Assembly: GCA_020881835.1 (NCBI GenBank)
Contig: CP052876.1
Location: 2,232,001 to 2,296,000 of the forward strand
Source: Kineosporiaceae bacterium SCSIO 59966
GTDB lineage: Bacteria > Actinomycetota > Actinomycetes > Actinomycetales > SCSIO-59966
Length of the DNA stretch: 64,000 nt
Direction of reading: 5' to 3'
The notes under the pieces are model-generated. The model was not told the origin of the DNA. It was given only the letters and a program-made list of their open reading frames with translations, and searched no databases. A program made the translations under genes and the position numbers. Below are positions 37,734 to 46,900 of this stretch, one piece after another. The first letter of the stretch is position 1, and each line of letters begins with the position of its first letter.

Positions 37734-37869
37734 CCTCCCTGCCCCGGGGCCCTTTGGGGAGGCGGGGCGGTGACTGGTCAGCTCTGTCCCGGGCTCAGGG
37801 ATCTTCGTCCACGGCCGCATGCCCGATCGGCGACGTGGGTACACCTCCTGGTGACGGACACCGGGCTTC

Positions 37870-37899
37870 CAACGCCTGGAACACCAACGCCTGGAACAC
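37870..37899 (+). repeat. 15-bp tandem direct repeat upstream of ferritin-like gene
   Basis: CAACGCCTGGAACAC occurs twice in tandem, 62-91 bases before the GTG at 37961. The rest of the 227-base gap (37734-37960) holds G/C runs around 37745-37765 that could end the TetR transcript. No clear promoter is seen. The repeat may be an operator half-site pair. Confidence 0.5.
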
Positions 37900-37960: not shown

Positions 37961-39184
37961 GTGGCATTCAACCCCCTCGAAGAACGAGGCCTACCCCTGG
38001 ATCAGCAGATCCGCAGCTGGTGTGAGCTGAACGTCGAGCCGTTCGATCCCGACGCCGTCCACCCGTACACCCGGTGCCGCGTGATCACGATGAACGGGAT
38101 CGAGGTCGAGGCACTCGTCTTCAGCCATCAGTTCGCCCGGCACACCAACGACAAGGACCTGCAACGCCAGCTCGCGCTGTCGCGTTACGTCGATCATCAG
38201 CAGCAGAAGGTGGTGAACTGGCTCCTGCCGGGCTGGTCGTCGGTCCTGGAGACCACGATCGCGTACGAGCAGGTCGCCACCGACCTGACCGCGTGGGTTG
38301 CACGCAACGAGCCCGACCCGTATCTGAAGCAAGCCTACGAGTTCGGCGTCCTGGAGGACTTCGACCACCTCTACCGATACTCCAACCTCTACGAGATGAT
38401 CGAGCACCGCAAGGCGGAGAAGATCGTCGACGAGCTGACGGAGGTCATCCCGGGTCGACCGACCCGGGCGCACCACCGCCACCCGTTCGACAACGTGCGG
38501 GACAACTACGACAAGCAGAGCGCCGCAGCGATCTCGAAGCTCCACCAGCTCACGATCACCTCGGCGGAGCAGCAGACGCTGAACTACTACGCCAACGTCG
38601 GACCGCAGTACATGGAGCCGATCGCCCGGCAGCTCTACCAGGAGATCGGCCTCATCGAGGAGGAGCACGTCACCCACTACGAGTCGCTGGGGGACGGCAG
38701 CGAGAGCTGGTTCGAGAAGCTGCTGCTGCACGAGTACAACGAGTGCTACCTCTACTACTCGTTCTTCGAGCAGGAGGTCGACCCGAAGGTGAAGCAGATC
38801 TGGGAGCTGCACCTGCAGATGGAGATCGGGCAGCTGCACGCCGCCTGCGACCTGATGCGCCGGTACGAGGACCGGGACCCCGAAGCGCTGCTGCCCACTG
38901 AGCTGCCCAACGTGCTGCTGTTCGAGCCGAACAAGGAGTACCTGCGCCACCTGCTCGCAACGCAGATGGACCTGACCACGCTGGGCACGGGTTACGTGCG
39001 CGACCAGCATGAGCGGTTCGTCGCGATGCAGGAGAGGCTCCAGGGCGACGGGACACCGGTCTCCGACATGGTGATCGAGCAGCACCGCGAACGCTTCGAG
39101 GGAGCGGACTACCGATCCGAACAGGCAGGGCCGTATCCGCAGGAGGCTCAGGACCGAGCCGAGGCGCAGTGGGGTGGGTTGTGA
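37961..39184 (+). CDS. ferritin-like diiron protein, about 407 aa, function unknown
   Basis: The protein is rich in long helices and carries two metal-binding-type Glu-x-x-His motifs. One is Ile-Glu-Glu-Glu-His-Val-Thr-His-Tyr-Glu (about 228-238) and the other is Glu-Ile-Gly-Gln-Leu-His (about 288-293). Tyr-Asn-Glu-Cys-Tyr-Leu-Tyr-Tyr-Ser-Phe-Phe-Glu lies between. Earlier helices add His/Glu pairs near 55-105. This fits a ferritin-like four-helix diiron domain. No signal peptide or membrane segment. GTG 37961 follows GAGGACGAG. It overlaps the hemerythrin-like gene by four bases (GTGA), so the two non-heme iron proteins are coupled. I do not recognise a named enzyme family. Confidence 0.72.
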   Translation: MAFNPLEERGLPLDQQIRSWCELNVEPFDPDAVHPYTRCRVITMNGIEVEALVFSHQFARHTNDKDLQRQLALSRYVDHQQQKVVNWLLPGWSSVLETTIAYEQVATDLTAWVARNEPDPYLKQAYEFGVLEDFDHLYRYSNLYEMIEHRKAEKIVDELTEVIPGRPTRAHHRHPFDNVRDNYDKQSAAAISKLHQLTITSAEQQTLNYYANVGPQYMEPIARQLYQEIGLIEEEHVTHYESLGDGSESWFEKLLLHEYNECYLYYSFFEQEVDPKVKQIWELHLQMEIGQLHAACDLMRRYEDRDPEALLPTELPNVLLFEPNKEYLRHLLATQMDLTTLGTGYVRDQHERFVAMQERLQGDGTPVSDMVIEQHRERFEGADYRSEQAGPYPQEAQDRAEAQWGGL

Positions 39185-39774
39185 GCACCGGTCACATCGA
39201 GATGCCCTACGGACAGATGCCGCCGCCGGACGTCGTCGAGCTGCTCGTCGCCCAGCACATGCGGATCCGGGACCTGCTGCGCGAGGTGCTGCGCACAGAC
39301 GGCGAGCAACGGCGCCACGCGTTTCGGGAGGTGCTGCACCTGCTGTCGGTGCACGAGACCGCCGAGGAGGAGGTCGTGCACCCACGCGCCCGGCACGCTC
39401 AAGGCGCCGGTGGCGAGGTCGTCGACGACCGGCTCGACGAGGAGCGCGAAGCGAAGGAGCTGCTGGCCCAGCTCGACGGCATGGACGTCGACGACCCGCA
39501 GTTCCTCCCGCTGTTCACCCGGCTCCGCCAGGCGGTCATCACCCACGCGCTCTACGAGCAGCGCTACGAGTTCAACCATCTTCGCCACCGCCTCTCGACG
39601 GCGGAACGGGCGACCATGCTCACGCTCGTGCAAGCGGCGGAGCGGACCGCACCGACGCGCCCTCATCCCGGGGTCGAGTCCGCAACCGCCAACCTGCTGC
39701 TAGGTCCGCTGGCGGCGACCGTGGACCGGGCACGGGACGCGATCCGCAGCGCACGCGAGGACGGGCGGCCGTAA
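39181..39774 (+). CDS. hemerythrin HHE cation-binding domain protein
   Basis: This 197-residue protein has the HHE pattern: Ala-Gln-His-Met-Arg-Ile-Arg-Asp (first His), Leu-Ser-Val-His-Glu-Thr-Ala-Glu-Glu-Glu-Val-Val-His-Pro (His and Glu), and Thr-His-Ala-Leu-Tyr-Glu with Phe-Asn-His-Leu later. This fits a diiron site for O2, NO or iron sensing or handling. A C-terminal 45-residue tail is helical and basic. Translation is coupled to the preceding ferritin-like gene, suggesting the two proteins act together in iron or oxidative/nitrosative stress. Confidence 0.85.
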   Translation: MSTGHIEMPYGQMPPPDVVELLVAQHMRIRDLLREVLRTDGEQRRHAFREVLHLLSVHETAEEEVVHPRARHAQGAGGEVVDDRLDEEREAKELLAQLDGMDVDDPQFLPLFTRLRQAVITHALYEQRYEFNHLRHRLSTAERATMLTLVQAAERTAPTRPHPGVESATANLLLGPLAATVDRARDAIRSAREDGRP

Positions 39775-39945: not shown

Positions 39946-40659
39946 TCAGCGCAGCTGCTCAGCGAGGTCGAGCAGCGACCTCACCTCCAGGTCCGGGGCC
40001 GTGAAGTATCCGGGGAAGGCCCCACCAGTCCGGTTGACCCACGCGCTGCCCAGACCGGCACGGGCCGCGCCGTCGGTGTCCCACGGGTGGACGGCCACGA
40101 GCATGGCGTCCTGCGGGTCGACGCCGCACCTCCCGAGGGCGTAGGCGTAGGCGGCGGGCGCCGGCTTCCAGATCCCGGCGGCCTCGACCGACAGGACCTG
40201 CTCCACCTCGTCGCGCACGCCGGCCTCCGCCAGCAGCCGGTGCGCGATCGAAGCGGCGCCGTTGCTCAACGTCACCAGACGGATGCCCAGGCCGGCGAGG
40301 GCGCGGACGCCGTCCGGCACGTCCTCGTGCACCCTCAGCTCACCGAACCCGGCCATGACGTGAGCCACCGCGTCGTCGAGGCCAACCCTCAGCGCAACGC
40401 CGCCAAGGAGGATCCGCAGCGACTCCTCACCGATGCGCGAGAACGGCTGGGACCGGCCGGTGACGGCGAGCGCGAAACCGTCGCGCAGCAGACCGGCGAA
40501 CCAGCTGGTGGCCAGATGCCCTGGCGCGCCGAGCTCCTCGAACCTGTCCGCCAGCGGGGACATGTCCGACAGCGTCTCGTTCACGTCGAACACCAGCACG
40601 CGGGGACGCCGCACCCGCTCGGGGCTCGCCTGCTGGCCGGGGCTGACGAGCTCGGGCAT
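39946..40659 (-). CDS. HAD-superfamily hydrolase, haloacid dehalogenase type II-like
   Basis: This 237-residue protein has nucleophile Asp25 in Phe-Asp-Val-Asn-Glu-Thr-Leu, motif II Leu-Ser-Asn-Gly-Ala-Ala, motif III Lys-Pro-Ala-Pro-Ala-Ala-Tyr, and motif IV Val-Ala-Val-His-Pro-Trp-Asp-Thr-Asp-Gly-Ala. This is the L-2-haloacid dehalogenase arrangement. Phe-Asp-Val-Asn-Glu is a common variant of Phe-Asp-Ala-Tyr-Gly, so the actual substrate may not be halogenated. It is a lone minus-strand gene with 171 bases of low-complexity G/C-rich DNA on its 3' side (39775-39945), in which I see nothing specific beyond short repeats of GGACCCGGGCC. Confidence 0.82.
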   Translation of the reverse strand: MPELVSPGQQASPERVRRPRVLVFDVNETLSDMSPLADRFEELGAPGHLATSWFAGLLRDGFALAVTGRSQPFSRIGEESLRILLGGVALRVGLDDAVAHVMAGFGELRVHEDVPDGVRALAGLGIRLVTLSNGAASIAHRLLAEAGVRDEVEQVLSVEAAGIWKPAPAAYAYALGRCGVDPQDAMLVAVHPWDTDGAARAGLGSAWVNRTGGAFPGYFTAPDLEVRSLLDLAEQLR

Positions 40660-40807
40660 CGGCAGTCTCCTTCACGGACGAACGACGGTGGCCGCTGCAG
40701 CGTCCAGGCAGTCTCGCGGACGTCGAGCGTACGCTCCGGGGCCCCGAGTCGTCGCTCCCGTCACAGGGCTACCGTGCTGCCGCAGACCACTCGCGAAGGG
40801 GCTCGGA

Positions 40808-41947
40808 ATGACCTCTCACCCGCACCACGGCATCGGCGCTGTCCGCCCCGAGGGGTGGGTCTACTCCCGCGCCCCCATGATCATCTACTGGGAGCTGACC
40901 ACGGCCTGCGGACTCGCCTGCCGCCACTGCCGTGCCACCGCCATGCCGGACCCGGCGCCTGGGGAGCTGACCACGGCACAGGCGCTGTCGGTGCTCGACG
41001 CGATGACCGGGTTCGGCTCGCCGCTGCCGCACGTCGTGCTCACCGGCGGAGACCCGCTGCGTCGCGGTGACCTGGACCTGCTGATCGCCGAGGCCGGCGC
41101 CCGCGGCATCGGGGTGTCACTGGCCCCTGCGGTCACCGAGCTGCTCACCCGCGAGCGTCTGGGTCAGCTGCAGCGGGCCGGGGTGCAGGCGATCTCGCTG
41201 AGCCTGGACGGCTCGGACGCCGCGCACCACGACGGCGTCCGCGGGGTGGCGGGCACCTTCGACGCCACGGTCACCGCCCTGCAGGACGCCGCGGCGCTGG
41301 GTGTCCCGGTGCAGGTCAACACCTTGGTGTCGGCCCAGACGGTGGACGACCTCCCTGCGGTCTACGAGCGCCTGCGTCACCACACCCTCATGCGCTGGAG
41401 CCTGTTCTTCCTCATCTCCGTGGGCCGCGGCTCCCACCTGCAGGAGCTCGAACCGGGCCGGGCCGAGCGGCTCATGCACTGGCTGCACGGTCTGAACGCC
41501 GAGGCGCCGTTCCAGGTCAAGACGGTGGAGGCGATGCAGTACCGGCGGGTCGCCGTGCGCCGGATGCGCCGCGCCGGCCTGACCGACGAGCAGATCGAGG
41601 CGAGCCCGCTGGGCCGGGGCTTCGGCGTCCGGGACGGCAACGGGATCGTCTTCATCGCCCACGACGGGACGGTCCAGCCCTCCGGGTTCATGCCGATGCC
41701 CCTGGGCAGGGTCCCCGCCGACGACATCGTCGAGCTGTACCGCCACCACCCCGACCTGGTCGCCCTGCGCGACGTGACCCGGTACAAGGGCCGCTGCGGC
41801 CGCTGCTCTTACGCCCGCTGGTGCGGCGGCTCCCGGGCCCGGGCGCTGGCCCGGACGGGTGACCCGCTGGAGTCCGACCCGCTGTGCCCCTACGAGCCGC
41901 GCGACGGCGCGACCCGGCCCGACAAAGGGCGTCGCGCTACGACCTGA
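40808..41947 (+). CDS. radical SAM / SPASM-domain protein (TIGR04053-like)
   Basis: This 379-residue enzyme has radical SAM motif Cys-Gly-Leu-Ala-Cys-Arg-His-Cys (about residues 36-43), a Gly-Gly-Asp-Pro-Leu SAM-binding segment, and a C-terminal SPASM-type cysteine group (Cys-Gly-Arg-Cys-Ser-Tyr-Ala-Arg-Trp-Cys, then Pro-Leu-Cys-Pro-Tyr). This makes an auxiliary Fe-S cluster likely. The family includes peptide- and heme-modifying enzymes. No small precursor peptide gene is evident nearby, though the flanking gaps (148 and 139 bases) are short. ATG 40808 follows a GGGGCTCGGA purine stretch. Substrate unknown. Confidence 0.85.
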   Translation: MTSHPHHGIGAVRPEGWVYSRAPMIIYWELTTACGLACRHCRATAMPDPAPGELTTAQALSVLDAMTGFGSPLPHVVLTGGDPLRRGDLDLLIAEAGARGIGVSLAPAVTELLTRERLGQLQRAGVQAISLSLDGSDAAHHDGVRGVAGTFDATVTALQDAAALGVPVQVNTLVSAQTVDDLPAVYERLRHHTLMRWSLFFLISVGRGSHLQELEPGRAERLMHWLHGLNAEAPFQVKTVEAMQYRRVAVRRMRRAGLTDEQIEASPLGRGFGVRDGNGIVFIAHDGTVQPSGFMPMPLGRVPADDIVELYRHHPDLVALRDVTRYKGRCGRCSYARWCGGSRARALARTGDPLESDPLCPYEPRDGATRPDKGRRATT

Positions 41948-42086: not shown

Positions 42087-42278
42087 TCAGCCTTGGAGAC
42101 TGAGGGCGGCGACAGGGCAGGAGTCCACAGCAGCCTGCACCTCAGTGCGTCGGGCCTCGTCGGGCTGGTCGTCGAGCACGACCACCGTCCCGTCCTCACC
42201 CACCTCGAAGAACTCGGGTTCCATGGCCTCGCACATCCCCAGGCCCTCACACCGACTCCTGTCGGCGACGATCCGCAT
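42087..42278 (-). CDS. [3Fe-4S] ferredoxin
   Basis: This 63-residue protein has Cys10-x5-Cys16 and Cys54-Pro, with the central motif lacking a fourth cysteine. That is the pattern of P450/AlkB-associated [3Fe-4S] ferredoxins. Its ATG shares one base with the stop of the AlkB gene. It would carry electrons from the ferredoxin reductase encoded two genes upstream to a hydroxylase. AlkB already carries its own rubredoxin, so the partner may be another oxygenase. Confidence 0.9.
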   Translation of the reverse strand: MRIVADRSRCEGLGMCEAMEPEFFEVGEDGTVVVLDDQPDEARRTEVQAAVDSCPVAALSLQG

Positions 42279-43744
42279 CAGGCGGCCTCCGCCTTCTCCA
42301 ACGGAACGAAGTCCAGCTTGTCGCGGACACCGCAGTCGGGGCAGCACCAGTCGTCGGGGACCTCCGACCAGGCCGTCCCGGCGGGGAATCCCTCGCGCTC
42401 CTCGCCTCTCTCCACCTCGTAGACGTAGTCACAGTTGGGGCAGCGAGCAGCCATGACCTCCTCGACCGCACCGGTGGTGAGATCGTCGGACGCTGGCTTC
42501 TCGTCGTCCTGCCCGTGCACTGGCGGTGGGTAGGCAGCCAGAACCTTCTCCCGCTTGCTGGGCTGGATGTTGGCGCGGCTGATGTCACCGCCGAAGTGGG
42601 CCAGCACCCTACGGTCCATGACGCGACGCCAGATCGGCGGGACCAGCGCGATGAGGATCATCCCGGCATAACCAGTCGGGAGGACGGGTGACTCCTCGTA
42701 GTCTCGCAGAGTCTGGTAGCGCCGCGTCGGGTTGGCGTGGTGGTCGCTGTGCCGCTGCAGGTGATACAGCAGCACGTTAGTGGCGATGTTGTTGTTGTTC
42801 CAGGAGTGCGACGGGTTGACCCGCTCGTACCGCTGCCGGCCTGGGGCACCGACCTTCTGACGCAGCATGCCGTAGTGCTCCATGTAGTTCACCACTTCAA
42901 GCAACGAGAAGCCCACCACTGCCTGCAGGACGAGGTAGGGCAGAATCTCGATACCCAGCCAGGCGATGAGGACACCCCAGAGCACCGCGGACATGAGCCA
43001 GGAGTTCAGCACGTCGTTGCCGAGCCGGAACGGGTGCTGGTTCCGGCGGGCATAGCGCTTCCTCTCCAGGTCCCATGCGCTCTTGAGTGACCCGAAGACG
43101 GTTCGTGGCCAGAATGCGTAGAAGCTCTCCCCGACTCGGCTGGAAGCCGGGTCCTCAGGCGTGGCGACGCGGACGTGGTGACCCCGGTTGTGCTCGATGT
43201 AGAAGTGGCCGTAGAAGGTCTGTGCCAAGGCGATCTTGGACAGCCACCGCTCGTGACTCTCCTTCTTGTGCCCCAGCTCGTGGGCCGTGTTGATGCCGAT
43301 ACCGCCGATGGCACCGATCGTGAGTGCCAGACCGATCTTGTCCACGACGCTGAGATCGCCACGAGCGATGAGCCAAAATGCTGTCACGAAGCCCGCGTAC
43401 TGGATCGGCAGGAAAAGGTAGGTGATCCACCGGTAGTAGCGGTCACGCTCCAGCGCCTCGATCACGTCGTCGGGCGGGTTGGAGCGGTCAAGACCGGCGA
43501 TCAGGTCAACGGCCGGCACGACACCGAACACGATGATCGGACCGATCCAGAGCCACACGCCCCACCCGGTGAGCTCGTGCAGCCCGATACCGAGGAAGGC
43601 CAACGACGGCACGACGAGGCCAAGGAGCCACAGGTAACGCTTCTTGTCACGCCACTGTGCCGTCGACCCCTCGGCAACCGTGCCGGTGGCCGCGATCCGG
43701 CCCGGAAGGGCCGACCCCTGATCTGCGGAATCTGCGCCTGCCAT
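42278..43744 (-). CDS. alkB: alkane 1-monooxygenase AlkB fused to rubredoxin
   Basis: This 488-residue membrane diiron enzyme hydroxylates terminal carbons of alkanes. Histidine boxes: His-Glu-Leu-Gly-His (155-159), Glu-His-Asn-Arg-Gly-His-His-Val-Arg (184-192) and Leu-Gln-Arg-His-Ser-Asp-His-His-Ala (about 334-342), plus Asn-Tyr-Met-Glu-His-Tyr-Gly. Several transmembrane helices lie at about 38-145 and 245-290. A linker leads to a rubredoxin domain (about 430-480) with Cys-Pro-Asn-Cys and Cys-Cys-Pro-Asp-Cys. This AlkB-rubredoxin fusion is known from actinobacteria. The ATG 43744 follows AGGAGG. Its own promoter probably lies in the 100-base gap after the reductase gene. Confidence 0.96.
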   Translation of the reverse strand: MAGADSADQGSALPGRIAATGTVAEGSTAQWRDKKRYLWLLGLVVPSLAFLGIGLHELTGWGVWLWIGPIIVFGVVPAVDLIAGLDRSNPPDDVIEALERDRYYRWITYLFLPIQYAGFVTAFWLIARGDLSVVDKIGLALTIGAIGGIGINTAHELGHKKESHERWLSKIALAQTFYGHFYIEHNRGHHVRVATPEDPASSRVGESFYAFWPRTVFGSLKSAWDLERKRYARRNQHPFRLGNDVLNSWLMSAVLWGVLIAWLGIEILPYLVLQAVVGFSLLEVVNYMEHYGMLRQKVGAPGRQRYERVNPSHSWNNNNIATNVLLYHLQRHSDHHANPTRRYQTLRDYEESPVLPTGYAGMILIALVPPIWRRVMDRRVLAHFGGDISRANIQPSKREKVLAAYPPPVHGQDDEKPASDDLTTGAVEEVMAARCPNCDYVYEVERGEEREGFPAGTAWSEVPDDWCCPDCGVRDKLDFVPLEKAEAA

Positions 43745-43844: not shown

Positions 43845-45050
43845 TCAGACCACAGACCAGACAGTCTCGGCCAGCTCGACGGCGTCCCTCCATGGAGCAC
43901 GACGGTGGATGAGCGCGCGGAACTTCATGATCCGGGCTGGAAGGTTCAGGCTCAGCGCACCGGTGACGCGGTCGCCCTCGCGGTAGAGCGCCAGCCACCG
44001 GTCCGCCCAGACGTCGCCGAAGAGGACGACGTCGGCGCCGTCGCAGGTCCCAACCATCTGAAGCCTTTGTCCGTACCAGTCCGACCAGAAGTACGGCACG
44101 CTGTGGTGGGCAGCTGCGGCATGCGGGTTCAGTGCGTTGCGCGCTACGGCGGTGGCCTGCTCGGAGGCAGACGTCCAGTGCTCCAGGCGCATCTCCCGAG
44201 CGAACAGTCCGTTGGTCCACCGGGCGACGTCACCGGCCGCGTACACACCAGGGACGCCGGTGGCGAGAGTCTCGTCGCAGACCACCCCGTCGGTCACGGT
44301 TACTCCCGACCCGGTCAGCCAGTCGGTCGTGGGCGACGCACCGATACCGACCACCACGACGTCGGCGGGAAGACTGGTCCCGTCGGTGAGGACGACGTTC
44401 TCGACACGGCCGTTGCCACGGACCTCCCGCACCCCGACTCCACAACGCAGCTCGGTGCCCCACCGGGCGTGCAGGCTTGAGCACGCATCGGCCATCTGCT
44501 CCCCGACTGCTCGTACCAAGGGCCGCGGTGCCGCCTCGACGATGGTGACCTCGAGCCCTCGCTTACGGGCGGCCGCAGCGACCTCCGACCCGATGAACCC
44601 GCCTCCGACGACCACCACGCGGCGTGCGGCGTCGAGGTCTCGCCGCAACGCTGTGGCGTCGTCAACGGTTCGCAGCGTGTGCACCCCGTCGACGGCGACG
44701 CCGGGCAGGTCCCGGGCATGGGCGCCGGTGGCGATCACCAGCGTCCGGTAGGGCAAGCGTGAACCGTCCAGAACCACCTCGGAGAAGTCCGTGTCGAGGC
44801 CCGTCGCCGGCACTCCGAGCAGTAGCTCGACACCGAGGTCACGCAAGTGGGACTCGTCCCGGTACGTCGGGATCCTCGGCGGCTCATCGGCATCAAGAAA
44901 CCGCTTGGACAGCGGGGGACGGTCGTAGGGCAGGTGCGGTTCGGCGCCGACCAGGGTCAAGGGACCGTCGTACCCCGCCCGCCGGAACGCCTCGACCGTT
45001 CTGAGGCCGGCGAGGGAAGCGCCCACGACGACCACCGGTGCCACACTCAC
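43845..45050 (-). CDS. ferredoxin/rubredoxin reductase (NADH, FAD)
   Basis: This 401-residue flavoprotein has two dinucleotide-binding motifs: Val-Val-Val-Gly-Ala-Ser-Leu-Ala-Gly for FAD and Val-Val-Val-Gly-Gly-Gly-Phe-Ile-Gly-Ser-Glu for NAD(P)H. Tyr-Asp-Arg-Pro-Pro-Leu-Ser-Lys and Val-Tyr-Ala-Ala-Gly-Asp-Val-Ala-Arg are typical of AlkT/BphA4-type reductases. It would reduce the ferredoxin and the rubredoxin domain of AlkB. GTG 45050 overlaps the GMC gene stop (GTGA). Confidence 0.94.
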   Translation of the reverse strand: MSVAPVVVVGASLAGLRTVEAFRRAGYDGPLTLVGAEPHLPYDRPPLSKRFLDADEPPRIPTYRDESHLRDLGVELLLGVPATGLDTDFSEVVLDGSRLPYRTLVIATGAHARDLPGVAVDGVHTLRTVDDATALRRDLDAARRVVVVGGGFIGSEVAAAARKRGLEVTIVEAAPRPLVRAVGEQMADACSSLHARWGTELRCGVGVREVRGNGRVENVVLTDGTSLPADVVVVGIGASPTTDWLTGSGVTVTDGVVCDETLATGVPGVYAAGDVARWTNGLFAREMRLEHWTSASEQATAVARNALNPHAAAAHHSVPYFWSDWYGQRLQMVGTCDGADVVLFGDVWADRWLALYREGDRVTGALSLNLPARIMKFRALIHRRAPWRDAVELAETVWSVV

Positions 45051-46900
45051 GAGTACGTGCCGTCCGCGGCCGGGGTCGTCACGCCAGTGGGCGTCTGGTG
45101 GCGGTCGATCGCCGACGCGCTCTGGTGCTCGTCGCCCTCGAGGCGCGCCGCTGTGGAGCGTGCCGTCCACAGCGCCGCGGGAGAGCAGTCCGGCACTACC
45201 GGGTGCCTGGGCGGTACCGGGTCGAGGCGCTGGTAGGGCTCACCGGCAGCAGGCCGCAGGTCCGGTTCGCCGTGGTTAGGCCACAAGGCGAACGCCCGTT
45301 CCGCCTGGGCCACGATGGTCAGCGACGGGTTGACCCCGAGGTTCGCCGAGATGGTGGAGCCGTCAACGACGTGGATGCCCGGGTAACCGTAGAGTCGGTG
45401 ATAGGGGTCGACGACCCCGGTCTCAGGCGAGTCACCGATGGCGCACCCACCGATGAAGTGCGCGGTCATGGGAATGTTCACCAGCTCCCCGAGGGTGCCT
45501 CCCGGGATACCACCGATCTGCTCGGCGACCCGACGGGTCACTTCGTTGCCGATCGGGATCCAGCTCGGGTTCGGCTCACCGTGGCCTTGTCGCGCGGTGA
45601 GTCGCCCCCATCTGGTGTACGTGGTGAGAGAGTTGTCCTTGGTCTGCATCACCAGGGTGATGATGGTTCGCTCCGACCAGCGGCGCGGAACCAGGATTCG
45701 CAGAAACGTGCGGGGCTGCCGCACCGCCACCCCTAGTGCCTTGAGCCACCGGGGCAGCCGTCCGCCCCCGTCGGTCATCACCGTCTGCAGCAGACCCATG
45801 AGGTTGCTGCCCCGGCCGTAGCGCACGGGCTCGACGTGCGTCTCGTCGTCGGGGTGGAACGACGAGGTGATCGCGACCCCACGGCTGAAGTCCTGATCGA
45901 CCTTCCGTGTTTGTGCTCCCAGCAAGGACTCCGAGTTCGTCCGGGTCAGCACCCCGAGCCGTGGCGAGATGTCCGGCAGATTGCCCGTGTCGCGCATCCG
46001 GTGCAGCAGCCGCTGGGTGCCGAGCGTGCCGGCAGCCAGCACCACCTGTGGCGCCGTGTACGTAGAGGAGGGCCGTCGCGACCAGGAGCCGGTGGCGACG
46101 GTGTCCACGGCGAAGTCGCCCGAGGGGGTCGGGCGGACCGCCACCACCGTCGTGTCAGGCACCACCCTGGCGCCGGCCCGCTCGGCCAGGTACAGGTAGT
46201 TCTTGACCAGGGTGTTCTTGGCGCCGACCCGGCAGCCGGTCATACAGGACCCGCACTGCGTGCACCCGGTGCGCTGAGGTCCGGCGCCACCGAAGTAGGG
46301 GTCCGGCAGCGTCACGCCAGGCTCGAGAGCGCCGTCACGGCCGAAGAAGACCCCGACCGGGGTGAGCCGGAAGGTGTGCCCGACCCCCATGTCGTCGGCG
46401 ACCTTGCTCATCACCTCATCTGGTGCGGTACGGACCGGGTTCTGCACCACCCCCAGCATGCGGCGGGCCTGCTCGTACCAGGGCCCCAGCTCGGCGTGCC
46501 AGTCGGTGATGTGGCCCCACTGCCGGTCCCGGAAGAACGGCTCCGGGGGCTGGTACAAGGTGTTCGCGTAGTTGAGCGAGCCGCCACCCACCCCGGCGCC
46601 GGCGAGCACGAGCACTCGCCCCACCTTGCTGATCCGCTGGATACCTCGCAGACCGAGGCGCGGAGCCCACAGGAAGCGGCGCACGTCCCACGACGTCGCC
46701 GGCAGGTCCTCGTCGGTGAACCGGCGGCCGGCCTCCAGGACGATGACCCGGTAGCCCTTCTCCCGCAGACGCAGCGCGGCGACACTGCCACCGAACCCAC
46801 TGCCGATCACGATGACGTCGGCGGTGCGGTCGACATCGCCGTCGAGGTGCCGCTGGGCTCCTGCAGCGCCGCGGCCCTCGAGGTTCGCTTGTGCCGTCAT
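45047..46900 (-). CDS. GMC-family oxidoreductase (AlkJ/cholesterol-oxidase-like) alcohol dehydrogenase
   Basis: This 617-residue FAD enzyme has Val-Ile-Gly-Ser-Gly-Phe-Gly-Gly-Ser-Val (FAD binding, about 31-40), Gly-Ala-Gly-Val-Gly-Gly-Gly-Ser-Leu-Asn-Tyr, and a Cys-x-x-Cys-x-x-Cys-x3-Cys insert (about 216-226) seen in cholesterol-oxidase-like GMC proteins. Asn-Pro-Ser-Leu-Thr lies near the C-terminal active site. It is the first gene of the alk operon, with AAGGAG before ATG 46900, and probably oxidises the alkanol made by AlkB. The long C-terminal tail (about 570-617) is polar and probably disordered. Confidence 0.88.
   Translation of the reverse strand: MTAQANLEGRGAAGAQRHLDGDVDRTADVIVIGSGFGGSVAALRLREKGYRVIVLEAGRRFTDEDLPATSWDVRRFLWAPRLGLRGIQRISKVGRVLVLAGAGVGGGSLNYANTLYQPPEPFFRDRQWGHITDWHAELGPWYEQARRMLGVVQNPVRTAPDEVMSKVADDMGVGHTFRLTPVGVFFGRDGALEPGVTLPDPYFGGAGPQRTGCTQCGSCMTGCRVGAKNTLVKNYLYLAERAGARVVPDTTVVAVRPTPSGDFAVDTVATGSWSRRPSSTYTAPQVVLAAGTLGTQRLLHRMRDTGNLPDISPRLGVLTRTNSESLLGAQTRKVDQDFSRGVAITSSFHPDDETHVEPVRYGRGSNLMGLLQTVMTDGGGRLPRWLKALGVAVRQPRTFLRILVPRRWSERTIITLVMQTKDNSLTTYTRWGRLTARQGHGEPNPSWIPIGNEVTRRVAEQIGGIPGGTLGELVNIPMTAHFIGGCAIGDSPETGVVDPYHRLYGYPGIHVVDGSTISANLGVNPSLTIVAQAERAFALWPNHGEPDLRPAAGEPYQRLDPVPPRHPVVPDCSPAALWTARSTAARLEGDEHQSASAIDRHQTPTGVTTPAADGTYS

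Follow-up and report, generated by a model that had tools for sequence, protein, structure and literature searches.

The locus described here raises the question of what function a large protein without a recognised family may have beside a hemerythrin. It lies in a window of 64,000 nucleotides, the whole stretch of DNA that was analysed, from Kineosporiaceae bacterium SCSIO 59966. Two genes on the forward strand make up the pair. The first (P0001, positions 37961-39184) begins with GTG and encodes the large protein of 407 amino acid residues. The second (P0002, positions 39181-39774) also begins with GTG and encodes 197 residues. The start of the second gene overlaps the stop of the first by 4 nt, in agreement with the translational coupling given in the preliminary description. 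The large protein is present as a single copy in the genome (3,095,448 bases, one contig), and P0002 is the single match to PF01814 there. An open reading frame with a TetR-like sequence, named by reading the translation, ends 227 bp upstream of the pair, and the next gene on the 3' side is convergent.

The product of the second gene matches PF01814 with 44.9 bits against a cut-off of 25.3 (E 2.1e-11), and its earlier assignment as a hemerythrin of the HHE type is therefore retained. The family of the large protein had not been recognised, and the direct searches agree with this. The best E values were 0.12 against Pfam, 0.11 against NCBIfam and 0.032 against PHROGs, a single-sequence search of PDB sequences gave no match of note, and the protein itself was left unmatched by the Rubrerythrin and EncFtn-like Pfam models. 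A known family reached by direct search was rejected, the matches being at chance level. Profile and structure searches with the 407-residue protein yielded no confident known enzyme family lacking a link to hemerythrin. The protein had been called ferritin-like on account of two Glu-x-x-His motifs. This basis was wrong: only one is present, E233-E-E-H236, and at least one such motif occurs in 88% of residue shuffles of the protein, so that the motif count proves nothing. The ferritin-like assignment itself survives on different grounds, namely an internal duplication, a constant ligand spacing and distant homologues, one of which passes the Rubrerythrin model.

Residues 34-160 and 188-306 form an ungapped internal duplication of 117 columns (hhalign E 4.6e-17, score 97). 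It is not visible when the window sequence is searched alone, without relatives, and it is retained with E 3.4e-7 and a score of 44 when the three most distant rows of the alignment are removed. The controls score lower, with 18.9 for the reversed profile, at most 17.5 for 30 column-shuffled profiles and 12-13 for the hemerythrin. A constant offset of 155 residues superposes E48 on E203, D78 on E233, Q81 on H236, E103 on E258, D133 on E288 and H136 on Q291. Each half holds two units. Comparison of the units by hhalign gives E 1e-10 for units 1 and 3, 2.3e-9 for units 2 and 4, 3.8e-5 for units 2 and 3 and 3.2e-4 for units 1 and 4; there is hardly any match of unit 1 with unit 2 or of unit 3 with unit 4.

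All segments of the large protein are encoded on the forward strand. Unit 1 (38060..38236, residues 34-92) contains E48, D78 and Q81, and unit 2 (38237..38410, about residues 93-150) contains E103, D133 and H136. The halves are joined by a linker (38411..38521, about residues 151-187) with conserved R166 and P167. Unit 3 (38522..38695, residues 188-245) contains E203, Y210, E233 and H236 with the sole literal ExxH, and unit 4 (38696..38878, residues 246-306) contains E258 or E261, Y265, E288 and Q291. The C-terminal part (38879..39181, residues 307-407) is partly conserved and poorly modelled. The ligand places are spaced by 30 and then by 3 residues in all four units of the window protein and of 20 of the 25 sequences compared; the exceptions are two Pandoraea sequences, with 28 in unit 1, and three distant sequences. 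In the window protein the complete E/E/H identity is found in unit 3 only, and the places D78, Q81 and Q291 are partly degenerate. As far as its sequence can tell, the large protein probably consists of four half-ferritin units that would build two diiron sites.

The family profile finds distant homologues with a best E of 2.5e-16 (L091/L106), which are also linked by plain tblastn (3e-20 to 3e-12). Three distant relatives match Rubrerythrin, and one of them, L106, is above the cut-off of this Pfam model (PF02915, 26.1 against 22.8 bits). This chain of relatives, rather than a direct match, argues for common descent of the large protein with members of the ferritin-like superfamily. The EncFtn-like model PF22277 has no match at E 1 across the window genome; it matches nine of the 25 relatives with E of at most 1 (lowest 0.0018), and the matches listed are under the cut-off. 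PF10118, a predicted metal-dependent hydrolase, matches unit 4 in 7 of the 25 relatives, also below the cut-off (best E 0.0018). Neither name was adopted, because PF10118 matches unit 4 of the relatives about as well as the EncFtn-like model does.

In the search of the family profile against PDB sequences, the six best of eight matches are EncFtn-type chains, each of them weak taken singly, with E of about 0.007-0.14: EncB (0.0068 and 0.0099), NE0167 (0.012), 6suw (0.018), 33bf (0.11) and 5n5e (0.14). The entry 6suw is titled just 'uncharacterized', and its alignment is nearly equal to that of 33bf. Two unrelated chains are next, at E 0.89 and 2.8. When EncFtn fragments, which were picked since they had matched, were compared with single units, they scored above their own reversals 9 times out of 12. 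The best values are 5.7e-5 for EncB with unit 3 and 4.3e-4 for NE0167 with unit 1, and against unit 3 two of the three fragments fail to beat their reversal.

The whole-chain model of the large protein (44 rows) is poor, with pLDDT 48.2, and the model of the second half (14 rows) has pLDDT 67.1. Foldseek gave no match at E 0.001 with either. In the structural comparison of the whole-chain model (VIA), 39 of the top 40 listed rows are of the ferritin superfamily or ferritin-like by title or by our recognition, with many rows repeating one protein. Their Z values run from 12.4, which falls in the range that helical models without true relatives can reach, to 7.7. The tally includes two rows for MJ0754, titled just 'hypothetical protein', which we take to be ferritin-like. 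The remaining row is the copper protein CopM at rank 18, and the first row beyond rank 40 has Z 6.6. The matches extend from about residue 12-29 to 304-324; 140-185 residues are covered at 3-4 Å in the matches to ferritin, Dps and ribonucleotide reductase R2, which have Z of about 10-12. With the half model, Foldseek matches EncB chains as hairpins (probability 0.91-0.96, about 46-55 columns, rmsd 1.0-2.0, E 2.2-2.9). In the second comparison of this model, unrelated designed and eukaryotic helical proteins are on top, the iron protein 6n63 takes fifth place with Z 6.8 and rmsd 6.9, and EncB is 27th. Ferritins superpose poorly on the half model.

The residues at the ligand places were counted in 98 aligned large-protein sequences, which are mostly close kin. 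H136, E203, E233, H236 and E261 are each present in 98 of 98. E48 is found in 97, with one gap, E103 in 97, and E258 in 96, with Gln in two. Position 78 is Glu in 95 sequences and Asp in the window protein and that of Janibacter; at position 81, 94 sequences have Gln and three have His; D133 is kept in 95 and is lost or altered in three distant sequences. E288 is kept in 95, with Asp in three, and at position 291 there are 93 sequences with His and five, including the window protein, with Gln. The tyrosines Y210 and Y265 are kept in 96 and 95 sequences, respectively. When the three distant sequences are left aside, the ligand variation at 78, 258 and 291 falls entirely in units 1 and 4.

These positions of variation, the poor fit of ferritins to the half model and the weak whole-chain model are the basis of a working guess, to which we give about an even chance, that the units pair within the chain as 1+4 and 2+3. 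The whole-chain model weakly points the same way. If the units pair so, conservation is strict at one site and relaxed at the other. The kept site would be formed by E103, D133, H136, E203, E233 and H236, is nearly invariant and is probably catalytic. The second site (E48, D78, Q81, E258, E288 and Q291) would be looser and, under the favoured pairing, would lack a histidine in this genome.

A scan of named genomes gave relatives of the large protein in 306 genome stretches. Among the best 80 of these 306, which make up the set of named loci, 76 are from Streptomyces by title, with 70-73% identity; the others are from Janibacter melonis (85%), Geodermatophilus chilensis (82%), a Streptosporangiaceae MAG (80%) and Microtetraspora glauca (71%). 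No large protein was found in 58 other genomes of the order to which the window belongs. In a sample of 396 genomes of the phylum, 13 match: the window genome and three others of its class, five full-length and three distant partial carriers from other classes, and G096, which was dropped as a relative (20.9 bits, with an open reading frame that reads like a TetR regulator). Relatives also occur in Alpha- and Betaproteobacteria. Seven plasmid records carry them, from Streptantibioticus (two), Nonomuraea, Tistrella mobilis (51% identity), a record labelled Subdoligranulum variabile (47%) and Pandoraea (two, 43%). This patchy spread suggests horizontal transfer of the large-protein gene. A phage origin was rejected: the phage records hold no relative, and a single partial one (L115) came from six scans of viral contigs.

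The two genes are neighbours in most of the loci examined. A relative of the hemerythrin adjoins the large gene in 79 of the 80 named loci (the best 80 of 306), and in the single exception, L022, the contig ends there. Of these 79 neighbours, 76 follow the large gene on the same strand and three are convergent. A profile search of 150 Streptomycetaceae genomes gave 12 matches to the large protein. One carrier (G470) was dropped as only a 47-residue fragment, and in another (G524) the match is in two pieces. In all 11 substantial carriers a hemerythrin lies within about 215 bp by coordinates, downstream in eight of them, convergent in two (G548, G462) and upstream with the same orientation in one (G452). 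The two samples share members, at least G289 and G412 lying on contigs equal in length to those of L014 and L015; the sequences are mostly close kin, and the counts are not independent. Such a hemerythrin is present in 104 of the 150 Streptomycetaceae genomes, often without the large protein; no substantial carrier in this sample has the large protein without a hemerythrin. The top four hemerythrin scores among the 396 genomes (314-326 bits, with 218 as the next value) belong to the four carriers of the window's class; the profile was built from such partners, and its scores favour them. The neighbourhood, kept in 79 of the best 80 loci and 11 of 11 carriers although the gene order changes, supports the proposal in the preliminary description that a two-gene unit of undescribed function holds two candidates for non-heme diiron proteins.

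The partnership is not general. In the five full-length and three distant carriers from other classes, no such hemerythrin was found at E 0.001 in the 396-genome sample, and none is near the gene in the record labelled Subdoligranulum. The hemerythrin is therefore not needed for the core function of the large protein. A divergent hemerythrin is found beside both Nonomuraea copies and beside the second copy of the Streptosporangiaceae MAG (L114). On the Tistrella mobilis plasmid, a hemerythrin-DUF892 fusion (L095:7272-8411) adjoins the large-protein relative, and the opposite side holds a DUF4142 gene. In Pandoraea the large gene is followed by a ferritin-like gene and a DUF892 gene, and in the distant relative L106 by a DUF892 gene. 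In these cases similar kinds of iron protein occupy the adjoining place.

Several observations were made on the neighbourhoods themselves. When 19 loci were compared for a conserved third gene, the only cluster of open reading frames common to all holds the pair, in single-linkage clusters with shadow frames that could hide a third gene. A further hemerythrin-like open reading frame occurs in 16 of the 80 named loci (the best 80 of 306) in stretches up to 13 kb (L006, L011, L016, L018, L020, L025 and ten others), hinting at hemerythrin clusters at such loci. Four genomes of one family from another class (L101-L104), possibly those of anaerobes, are carriers without the hemerythrin. By reading, the large gene lies near methionine aminopeptidase-like or ribosomal protein L11-like frames in L101, L103 and L104. 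In the window, also by reading, a radical SAM-like open reading frame (40433-41947, forward strand) with CxxxCxxC and a Cys-rich end is found 3' of the pair. A gene whose translation reads as an alkane hydroxylase-like protein with a rubredoxin-like end (42278-43744, reverse strand) is flanked by ferredoxin-like and reductase-like frames (42087-42347 and 43845-45170, both reverse).

Upstream of the large gene, a 15-bp perfect tandem repeat (37870-37884 and 37885-37899), located about 60-90 bp before the GTG codon, could act as a regulator site. A search for sigma-70-type promoters upstream of the pair gave none. The sequence GGGTAC is present at 37837-37842. It resembles the -10 element of stress sigma factors. 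Among 80 closely related sequences (the window with 79 loci), 50 have the pattern GGGTAY in the 300 bp before the gene, where shuffling gives a mean of 9.3. Fuller sigma-B-like patterns occur in 6 and 10 of these 80 close kin against 0.1 in shuffles.

The hemerythrin partners were aligned in 76 sequences, from the window and 75 loci; four partners with a stop or with fewer than 140 residues were omitted. H26, H58, E62, E87, E88, H122, E126, Y129 and H162 are invariant in 76 of 76. The canonical hemerythrin ligand motif is given as H-HxxxE-HxxxH-HxxxxD in PMC9388753. P0002 differs from it in lacking the HxxxH of helix 3 and the final HxxxxD and in ending with HxxxE.

We infer that the pair may handle iron, oxygen or NO. 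The reading that we prefer, held at a little short of an even chance, is that the large protein is a cage-less diiron relative of ferritins that consumes Fe(II) together with peroxide or O2, aided by a non-canonical hemerythrin. A four-helix segment would have been duplicated to give the four half-ferritin units, and these would, most likely, pair inside one chain to form two diiron sites. The large protein would then act in the cytosol, where it would use H2O2 or O2 to oxidise Fe(II), or consume them in another way, without an iron store; this chemistry is proposed by analogy with Dps, rubrerythrin and EncFtn. P0002 would assist in only part of the hosts, for example as a protein that binds O2, peroxide or NO or hands them over, or through exchange of iron. 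The gene anatomy, the homology, the duplication, the ligand-like conservation and the kept neighbourhood are computed results, whereas the metal, the pairing of the units, a physical complex of the two proteins and the substrate are proposed.

An unlikely alternative is a small-molecule diiron oxygenase of the AurF/CmlI N-oxygenase or aldehyde-deformylating oxygenase type, with the hemerythrin as oxygen supplier. The structural matches of the whole model include AurF, CmlI and aldehyde-deformylating oxygenase (Z 7.7-9.1), a related Prochlorococcus protein tops the Foldseek list of the half model at E 0.23, and 76 of the best 80 loci are from Streptomyces by title. However, the 19 loci hold no conserved pathway genes in a clustering that could hide a third gene, and relatives are found in Alpha- and Betaproteobacteria and in other classes. 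Four repeats are not known as a feature of these oxygenases. It is distinctly improbable that the large protein is an iron store or carrier of the EncFtn type with the hemerythrin as its iron or oxygen partner: the ligand spacing and the best PDB sequence matches are those of EncFtn, but the ligand places vary and the genome is without the classical encapsulin PF04454.

The main enzyme could instead be the hemerythrin, in a pair detoxifying peroxide or NO to which the large protein contributes as iron donor or repair partner. PMC8913304 reports catalase and NO peroxidase activity for mycobacterial hemerythrin-like proteins, and the invariant Y129 lies near the last ligand motif of P0002. With some carriers of the large protein lacking a hemerythrin, and with the partner-family profile matching the M. 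kansasii NO peroxidase 6q09 at a non-significant E of 0.81, we consider this reading to have a small chance. The presence of D78, Q81 and Q291 in the sites of this genome would suit a structural descendant without iron chemistry, linked to the hemerythrin as its adaptor or sensor, but none of the 98 sequences has lost H136, E203, E233, H236 or E261, and this reading is highly improbable. Within the preferred reading of a cage-less ferritin relative, a more specific form is rather doubtful. It describes a new branch of the ferritin superfamily with nested units (1+4 around 2+3) and two unequal diiron sites, in stable complex with a diiron hemerythrin. If true, the complex would be a three-site machine acting on O2, peroxide or NO with iron, and the chain would be a surviving link between single-chain ferritins and dimeric half-ferritins of the EncFtn kind.

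The large protein has relatives in 306 genome stretches, yet the searched libraries give it no name. A half-ferritin unit present four times per chain is of general interest and bears on the origin of single-chain ferritins from dimeric half-ferritins. The tight genetic tie to a hemerythrin is of general interest too, the roles of bacterial hemerythrins being, in our judgement, largely open. The matches listed in a literature search that covered little of the subscription literature include no published description of the large-protein family, so that the four-unit family is undescribed within that search. Two-bundle ferritin-like chains are already in print: the bacterioferritin-like encapsulin cargos are described in PMC8346489 and PMC11202242 as single chains with two four-helix bundles of the ferritin superfamily. 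Compared by description only, these cargos differ from the large protein in having targeting peptides and encapsulin loci. An encapsulin cargo reading of the large protein was rejected, no classical encapsulin PF04454 having been found in the genome.

The hemerythrin agrees with other HHE proteins of PF01814 in H26, H58xxxE62 and H122xxxE126 (76 of 76). The mycobacterial NO peroxidase has Tyr, four His and two Glu as ligands. Y129 and H162 are kept in all 76 sequences of the P0002 family, whose profile has no significant match to that peroxidase (6q09, E 0.81). The DUF892 (YciF-type) ferritin-like stress proteins, which adjoin the large gene in Tistrella, Pandoraea and the distant relative, are a separate family; in the window no DUF892 gene was read beside the large gene. 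Rubrerythrin (PF02915) and the diiron proteins of the ferritin superfamily share the E, ExxH pattern, and it is this model that the distant relative L106 passes. The spacing is 33 in the classical ferritin named in PMC5012862 (E16-E49 and E95-Q128), whereas it is 30 in the large protein. EncFtn (EncB, NE0167; PF22277) is a two-helix half-ferritin unit with the order E, 30, E, +3, H, like the units of the large protein. The iron ligands of the encapsulated ferritin, as given in PMC5012862, are Glu32, Glu62, His65 and Tyr39 from two chains. EncFtn, a ring-shaped decamer whose sites lie at subunit interfaces, has one unit per chain, whereas the large protein has four, with Asp or Gln at several ligand places. 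The place of the EncFtn residue Tyr39 (E+7) is filled in the large protein by Y210 and Y265.
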